Source: Sulfurospirillum multivorans DSM 12446 (lineage in GTDB: Bacteria > Campylobacterota > Campylobacteria > Campylobacterales > Sulfurospirillaceae). From it: a DNA stretch of 64,000 nt. This document shows positions 894-1,775 of this stretch, one piece after another. Position 1 is the first letter of the stretch. Each line of letters starts with the position of its first letter. The translations under genes were made by a program, and so were the position numbers. Where the stretch lies: positions 558,001 through 622,000 of the forward strand of contig NZ_CP007201.1 in the NCBI RefSeq assembly GCF_000568815.1, given 5' to 3'. The notes beneath the pieces are model-generated. The model did no database searches and was not told the origin of the DNA. It saw nothing but the letters and a program-made list of their open reading frames with translations.

Positions 894-1775
894 TTACTCT
901 ACGCCTCTTACTTTTTTCATCTCGTCTTCGCGCTCTTTGAGGAAAAGTTCAAGATTGTATTTTTGACGATACACTGGCGTCATAAGGTGAATTAAAATGT
1001 CTCCCATATCAATAACCGTCCAGTTATCATCGGCGTCGACGTTTAAAAAACTCTCCCCCGCACCTTTGAGTTCGGTTTTGAGGTGATCTAAAAGTGAAAG
1101 ACCATGTCTCTCTCCCATCGTGGTTGCAATCACAACCGTGTTGACAAAATAGTCTTTGCCTGTCATATCAAACACTTGTATCTCTTCTGCTTTTTTATCA
1201 CTGAGTGCTGTGACAATTCTTTCGATTCTGCTATCCATTGGATTCCTTGTATAAAACGCCATCACTTCATTTTCGATGCTTTTGGGAATAAATCTTCGAT
1301 CTAAAAATGAGCGGAGCTTTGAAGAACTGATATTAACATTAATTGGTAAAATTTTCAAGTCTTCAGGCGGGTGAAAAGCACCACGAGGAGCTACGACAAA
1401 TTCTACGTGAGAGCAAAGCTCGTCATAGCGGTTCCATTTGGGCAAAGCGGTGAAACTGTCACTTCCCACAATGAGATAAATCTTGGCATTTTTGTAAAGA
1501 TGCTTTACATGTAAAACCGTTTCAATGGTCGGAACCTGTCTTTTTTGATCGCATTCGTACGAAAAAATCTCTACTTTTTCCATGCCTTCAAACATCTTCG
1601 CAAGCCAACGTTGGCGCATCGGAGCAGGGGCACAAAAACTCTCCTTAAACGGACTTAAGTAGGTCGTTACGACTAAAAGTTTGTCAATATCGAGAATTTC
1701 AAGGGCTTTTTGGACAATGAGCTCATGCCCTGTGTGAGGAGGATCGAAAGAGCCTCCAAAAATAGCTATGTTCAA
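894..1775 (-). CDS. nadD-rsfS: Fused nicotinate-nucleotide adenylyltransferase and ribosomal silencing factor
   Basis: A 293-residue ORF with two domains. Residues 1-178 are NadD (nicotinate mononucleotide to deamido-NAD), with the nucleotidyltransferase motif GSFDPPHTGH at 8-17 and an ISSSKLR motif near 150. Residues 180-293 are RsfS/Iojap, which binds uL14 and blocks subunit joining in starvation; it contains the DMTGKDYFVNT and NWTVIDMGDILIHL segments. The start is TTG at 1775 with GGAG eight bases upstream. Met180 (codon at 1236-1238) has its own AAGGAA upstream, so RsfS may also be made separately. In most bacteria these are two adjacent genes. A lost stop codon or an assembly indel would both give this picture. 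Confidence 0.9.
   Translation of the reverse strand: MNIAIFGGSFDPPHTGHELIVQKALEILDIDKLLVVTTYLSPFKESFCAPAPMRQRWLAKMFEGMEKVEIFSYECDQKRQVPTIETVLHVKHLYKNAKIYLIVGSDSFTALPKWNRYDELCSHVEFVVAPRGAFHPPEDLKILPINVNISSSKLRSFLDRRFIPKSIENEVMAFYTRNPMDSRIERIVTALSDKKAEEIQVFDMTGKDYFVNTVVIATTMGERHGLSLLDHLKTELKGAGESFLNVDADDNWTVIDMGDILIHLMTPVYRQKYNLELFLKEREDEMKKVRGVE

Follow-up and report, generated by a model that had tools for sequence, protein, structure and literature searches.

The locus analysed here raises the question of whether a nicotinate-nucleotide adenylyltransferase (NadD) and a ribosome silencing factor (RsfS) that share one reading frame are made only as a joined protein, or whether rsfS is still expressed from within that frame as a gene of its own. 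Proteins of the RsfS family bind uL14 and block subunit joining.

Reading frame and domain assignment

The fused nadD-rsfS frame occupies positions 894–1775 (minus strand) of the window, that is, of the whole stretch of 64,000 nucleotides that was analysed. It comprises 293 codons from a TTG start codon (1773–1775, minus strand, with GGAG upstream) to a TAA stop codon (896–894), and the window sequence contains no stop codon between the two domains. The sequence-only reading had placed nadD and rsfS in a single 293-residue frame, and this was confirmed: the frame is unbroken and both families score above their curated cut-offs. By NCBIfam score the protein belongs both to NadD (TIGR00482, 129.8 bits, cut-off 112.45) and to RsfS (TIGR00090, 85.1 bits, cut-off 56.9). 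The corresponding Pfam matches are CTP_transf_like (residues 5–156, 60.8 bits, cut-off 21) and RsfS (PF02410, residues 186–276, 74.7 bits, cut-off 21.6), and the profile matches together place NadD at residues 5–172 and RsfS at residues 184–277 of the 293-residue protein. Codons 1–179 (1239–1775, minus strand) are thus assigned to a predicted NadD, and Met180 to Glu293 (894–1238, minus strand) to a predicted RsfS, which is encoded by its own gene in split relatives. The NadD residues G7, G8, F10, D11, P12, H14, H17, S150, S151, and R155 are invariant among 36 aligned fusions.

The source genome (3.18 Mb) contains a single match to the whole NadD-RsfS protein; a second TIGR00482 match there is partial (32.9 bits) and lies below the cut-off of 112.45 bits. 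Eleven genomes of family f15 (G057, G074, G088, G101, G113, G125, G137, G148, G178, G188, and G198) gave an RsfS match together with just partial NadD hits below the cut-off, like the weak second one in G000; judged from these matches, the family may lack this NadD. The weak start codon of nadD is conserved (22 of the 23 genus rows have TTG and the remaining one GTG), whereas the internal start codon of rsfS is ATG in all 18 fused genomes of the genus. A tiny leader frame that overlaps the TTG start codon was rejected for want of a conserved ATG.

Distribution of the fused and split states

As the sequence-only reading had suggested, the fusion was searched for in related genomes, and 18 of the 24 genus genomes and at least 40 genomes of an even draw of 248 from the order proved to carry it. 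Within the genus, 23 of the 24 genomes gave a match: 18 are fused (a number that covers the source genome and several genomes in a single contig), four are split (G013, G018, G021, and G022), and one is frameshifted; the genome without a match is G015. Protein identity among the fused members of the genus is 73–100%. The closest named relatives are from Sulfurospirillum, and the named fused records are those of S. diekertiae (L041), S. cavolei (L044), and four strains of Campylobacter concisus. An assembly or sequencing indel as the source of the fusion, in favour of which a frameshift inside nadD can be cited from one metagenome-assembled genome (MAG) of the genus (G020), is refuted by relatives with an uninterrupted frame and has virtually no probability left, the same frame recurring in numerous independent genomes, among them single-contig ones and those of S. 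diekertiae and S. cavolei.

The search of the family gave a match in 39 of 44 genomes, and 234 of the 248 order genomes matched. Fused frames were seen in nine families (f1, f4, f6, f7, f10, f11, f14, f17, and f20); the count of 40 is a lower bound, because 105 order genomes were inspected on fetched DNA (40 fused, 65 split) and the remaining ones were judged from match tables alone. By these tables 80 genomes were placed, in none of which any single frame is long enough for both parts under one match, and five (G252, G255, G260, G261, and G268) were left unplaced; for about 13 order genomes the tables show just one of the two parts. A further 150 genomes drawn from the phylum, every one of them listed under the same order, added more uninterrupted matches, chiefly in genus g15 of family f11 according to the match listing.

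Some individual loci deserve mention. The MAG G110 carries fused and split copies on different contigs (L086 and L124) and is probably a mixed bin; it was counted as fused despite the split copy. The fused frame L165 (G233) has a NadD part that stops soon after SSTKLR and passes directly into RsfS, so that the last NadD helix is missing, and this genome, with its shortened NadD end, was excluded from the Shine-Dalgarno counts. At L019, the locus of G020, the fused junction is unchanged next to the frameshift within nadD, which reflects an error in sequencing or else a break of recent origin. Two loci named as Acidobacteria (L074 and L075) gave weak RsfS hits that overlap nadD by four bases.

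Changes between the two states

A tree of NadD plus RsfS with 118 rows required 15 changes between the fused and the split state. After removal of four doubtful rows (114 rows, two programs), 14 changes were required, as compared with 28–41 in 20 shuffles of the labels; the exact number is soft because fork support is poor (37 of 114 forks open), four rows have long branches, and the row sample is non-random, with fused loci favoured because loci were taken best match first. The state changes often in these trees and fusion is recurrent, and both states occur in each of six genera (g1, g8, g14, g21, g27, and g56).

The four split species of the genus fall inside fused lineages (supports 86–97), which suggests re-splitting within the genus; the direction of change cannot be proved by counting changes. 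In one alignment, the linker is longer than in fused species by one base in G021, G022, and G013 and by five bases in G018, and all four species retain AAGGAA and ATG downstream of the linker change. The sequence-only reading had proposed that two separate genes were joined by loss of a stop codon. Their separateness holds for many relatives; simple stop loss has been replaced, for this genus, by changes in linker length. It is a possible route in other families, given the reading frames of the split pairs: among 67 split tree rows, rsfS shares the frame of nadD in 13 and lies in a different one in 54. When the rsfS start codon nearest to the RsfS match is used, the two genes overlap in 46 of these rows, touch in three, and are gapped in 18, and an SD-like (Shine-Dalgarno-like) 4-mer precedes that start codon in 63 of the 67.

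These observations are consistent with neutral drift of the frame, in which the linker of an overlapping pair would shift from one frame to another and selection would see NadD, RsfS, and the rsfS start signals alone. The 14–15 changes of state, the genera holding both states, and the three split junction types found within one genus all favour such drift, and on balance we lean towards it. A stable-looking fusion would speak against it, as in genus g15 of family f11, which is fused in 6 of 6 tree rows; this objection is weak, given that rows were chosen best match first, and is weakened further by separate frames in genomes of g2, g4, and g5 (family search listing) and in G280, G318, and G326 of g15 itself (match listing). 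Neutral drift refines, and does not oppose, the explanation of rsfS as a nested gene that is developed below.

A probable internal translation start of rsfS

The rsfS part begins with an in-frame ATG (Met180, 1236–1238, minus strand), which is preceded by the Shine-Dalgarno (SD) sequence AAGGAA (1243–1248, minus strand), the AGG of which encodes Arg177. Both elements had been pointed out in the sequence-only reading with a distance of six bases; the elements stand, and the gap was corrected to four bases (five when counted from AAGGA).

The strength of this site was compared with that of other in-frame codons. An SD energy of −5 kcal/mol or lower was found at the internal start of 45 of 49 fused genes and at 59 of 623 other in-frame ATG, GTG, or TTG codons, with a slight bias in favour of the junction, for which the best SD within nine codons was taken. 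Gene by gene, the junction SD is the strongest internal site in just 17 of the 49 fused genes, and synonymous shuffles of single fused genes gave p≤0.05 in just 18 of 49.

Codon choice was examined by a scan of 53 rows of families f1, f7, f10, and f22 (two odd rows excluded; 146 columns with a common residue), the expectation being each gene's own codon usage, shrunk to the pool. The ranks of the columns are comparable because all columns share one tree, and z-values are inflated by relatedness. Arg177 is read as AGG in 32 of 32 rows with Arg (3.8 expected) and is the second most biased column; for all Arg residues within the five codons before the internal start, AGG was used in 37 of 39 cases versus 43 of 586 elsewhere (the rows being related). 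Translation of the SD gives Arg (AGG) in f1, f10, f17, f20, and six of seven f7 rows. In f4, f6, f11, f14, and one f7 row, where the spacing differs, AAGGA is read as x-Gly (GGA). Two codon readings of the same SD show that bases are kept rather than residues. In six-codon windows over the genus, the junction (start 176) ranks ninth lowest of 287 in synonymous diversity; the windows with lower diversity start at 144, 138, 168, 169, and 145–148.

The internal signals are thus under constraint at the nucleotide level, and a conserved in-frame start with a Shine-Dalgarno sequence, as expected by sequence of a dual-product gene, is present. It is probable that the site before Met180 is a functional ribosome-binding site, and the proposal of the sequence-only reading that free RsfS could still be made gains comparative support from its conservation.

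A candidate internal promoter within nadD

The most biased of the 146 columns is Leu140, which is TTG in 51 of 51 cases (7.9 expected), and the third most biased is Ile149 (ATC in 40 of 52, 13.6 expected). From Leu140 to Ile149 the window reads TTGAAA-N17-TAATAT. A candidate promoter was located here at 1330–1358 (minus strand) from a consensus scan together with codon conservation: TTGAAA at 1358–1353, a 17-base spacer ending in TGT, which places TG ahead of the second hexamer, and TAATAT at 1335–1330. The consensus scan found five promoter-like sites in the region versus a mean of 2.0 in shuffles and therefore carries little weight on its own. Conservation at third codon positions is higher in the hexamers than in the spacer: it is 0.98/0.98 in codons 140–141 and 0.91–0.96 in codons 146–148, as compared with 0.43–0.70 in spacer codons 142–145 and 0.57–0.75 in codons 149–151. 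Two conserved hexamers at the 16–18-base spacing looked for in a sigma-70 promoter are present.

TTG140 occurs in 51 of 53 rows of f1, f7, f10, and f22, and TAnnAT in 50 of 53. Since TTG140 is found in split (16 of 18) and fused rows (35 of 35) alike, the promoter-like element is independent of the fusion. In f11, seven rows have both halves, six have neither, and two have one alone; outside these families, the second half occurs by itself in a single f5 row and the other anchored rows have neither, two rows being without the anchor motif for the comparison. The element is absent from the anchored rows of f4, f6, f9, f14, f16, f17, f18, and f20, some of which are fused, and so is not needed in general.

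The conserved block might also represent another nucleotide signal, such as a regulator or RNase site or mRNA structure, or in part a codon preference around the conserved ISSSKLR motif of NadD. In line with this, the biased codons extend to Ser151 and Lys153, and TAATAT is not enriched upstream of reading frames in the source genome: in the upstream regions of 140 ORFs within 400 kb it occurs 0.45 times per kb versus 1.48 in shuffles. The form of the −10 element that is enriched there is TGnTAWAAT (0.79 versus 0.10), of which the candidate has TG and TA..AT, and TTG stands 16–18 bases before TAnAAT at 3 of 81 sites. Against another signal or codon preference speak the spacing of 17 bases, the TG before the second hexamer, and the freer spacer between conserved hexamers, and TTG140 falls outside the ISSS motif of NadD. 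We give a signal of this other kind a lesser but appreciable chance. An internal rsfS promoter inside nadD is somewhat favoured by the sequence comparison, below the confidence given to the ribosome-binding site, because TAATAT is not a favoured form in this genome and few TTG motifs lie at promoter spacing. The start site named in the sequence-only reading is probably accompanied by a promoter, which was overlooked there.

Structural model and possible role of the fused protein

An AlphaFold model built with 36 fused sequences (mean pLDDT 89.3, pTM 0.63) predicts a single helix at residues 165–193, in which the last NadD helix continues into the first RsfS helix. No solved structure spanning both domains was found among 30 matched sequences, as judged by the best stretch of each.

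Were the fusion the only product, NadD-RsfS would be truly bifunctional and the internal AAGGAA and ATG a relic of the joining of two genes. The frame uninterrupted in 18 of 24 genus genomes and the unbroken helix joining the modelled domains fit this reading. Set against them are the uncertain domain placement (pTM 0.63) and AGG177, which never changes although the codons of other Arg residues do; a relic would be expected to have drifted across proteins of 73–100% identity. We consider a fusion made alone to be unlikely.

It is also conceivable that NadD-RsfS docks on the 50S subunit through RsfS and so brings an NAD enzyme to idle ribosomes and bulk against subunit joining, with RsfS from the nested gene setting the ratio and frame changes between species tuning it. 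Such docking is decidedly improbable, and because the relative placement of the domains is uncertain, no claim about it is based on the model. The coupling of NAD level or starvation through a fused protein, which the sequence-only reading had raised, is not supported here and stays speculation.

Proposed origin and expression of the nested gene

The explanation that we prefer, and regard as likely from the comparisons above, is that rsfS persists as a gene nested in the fused frame, equipped with a ribosome-binding site and probably also a promoter of its own, and that NadD-RsfS is made together with separate RsfS. The two genes are adjacent in many Campylobacterales, and split pairs mostly overlap, so that the rsfS start signals would lie within the 3' end of nadD. 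Small indels, and in some families perhaps stop loss, would bring the two frames together. Once they are joined, each ribosome finishing nadD would run on into rsfS and yield NadD-RsfS, as follows from the sequence. The start signals of rsfS would persist, initiation at Met180 on AAGGAA presumably continuing, and the promoter in nadD codons 140–149 would probably give a short rsfS mRNA and hence free RsfS; for both steps we infer activity, and the formation of both products, from conservation at the nucleotide level. Free RsfS would presumably bind uL14 and block subunit joining. The RsfS tail on NadD appears to be at least tolerated, and any role of the fusion itself may be neutral.

Relation to known systems

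Wolinella succinogenes belongs to the Campylobacterota. Its NadD-YbeB (RsfS) fusion, in which the same two families form one uninterrupted protein as they do here, has already been published (PMC3223725) and is mentioned too in PMC5462765. In the available part of PMC3223725, E. coli YbeB and the Wolinella fusion are described as being without pyrophosphatase or NAD cleavage activity, and an NAD-dependent ribosomal modification is proposed. The fusion as such is therefore known. As far as the accessible text of both accounts goes, by which the likeness is judged, no internal start, internal promoter, or change between fused and split states is described. No earlier report of comparative evidence for a separate rsfS inside the fused frame, with its nested start or promoter, was found in the literature search, a weak negative with subscription papers mostly outside its reach; none is contained in the available parts of PMC10832277, PMC3229698, PMC7549365, PMC5462765, PMC3223725, PMC13243776, PMC10490939, and PMC3814617.

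NadD (TIGR00482) and RsfS/YbeB/Iojap (TIGR00090) are known as separate neighbouring genes, the arrangement also seen in the split relatives; unlike them, the frame studied here has no stop codon between the parts and has the rsfS start in frame inside the ORF. NF005519 (PRK07152), which we take to be a model of a NadD-HD (YqeK-like) fusion, likewise describes a longer protein that begins with NadD; the present protein does not belong to it, matching over residues 1–158 only with 127.1 bits against a cut-off of 315 bits. Mitochondrial MALSU1 has additional proteins bound to it, which increase the bulk that opposes subunit joining. It is likewise an RsfS-family protein, seen on the large subunit of the mitochondrial ribosome (PDB 5ool and others); unlike in NadD-RsfS, its bulk is bound rather than covalent and includes no NAD enzyme.

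We presume that cj1404 is nadD of C. jejuni. It is listed among genes that were predicted or identified as essential (PMC3229698, in the part available), and in C. coli CCN182 rsfS transposon insertions are reported, in the accessible text, among those affecting the peroxide response (PMC10832277). According to the available part of PMC7549365, nadD, yqeK, lytR, and rsfS form one conserved cluster in Negativicutes. Archaeal Cas11b genes, as described in the accessible part of PMC11899642, give two products from one frame, the shorter from an internal start, as is predicted here; unlike theirs, the shorter product here makes up a complete family of its own, encoded by a stand-alone gene in sister species.

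Biological meaning

Between overlap and fusion, the locus and its relatives offer a clean natural series that shows regulatory signals persisting within coding sequence. They also serve as a warning that an annotated bifunctional protein can conceal a separately expressed gene. If free RsfS is the working form, the Wolinella fusion may be the wrong protein for the published negative assay (PMC3223725, as far as its available part describes it). The family is, moreover, a simple system for asking whether a large N-terminal partner is put to use by RsfS or just tolerated.
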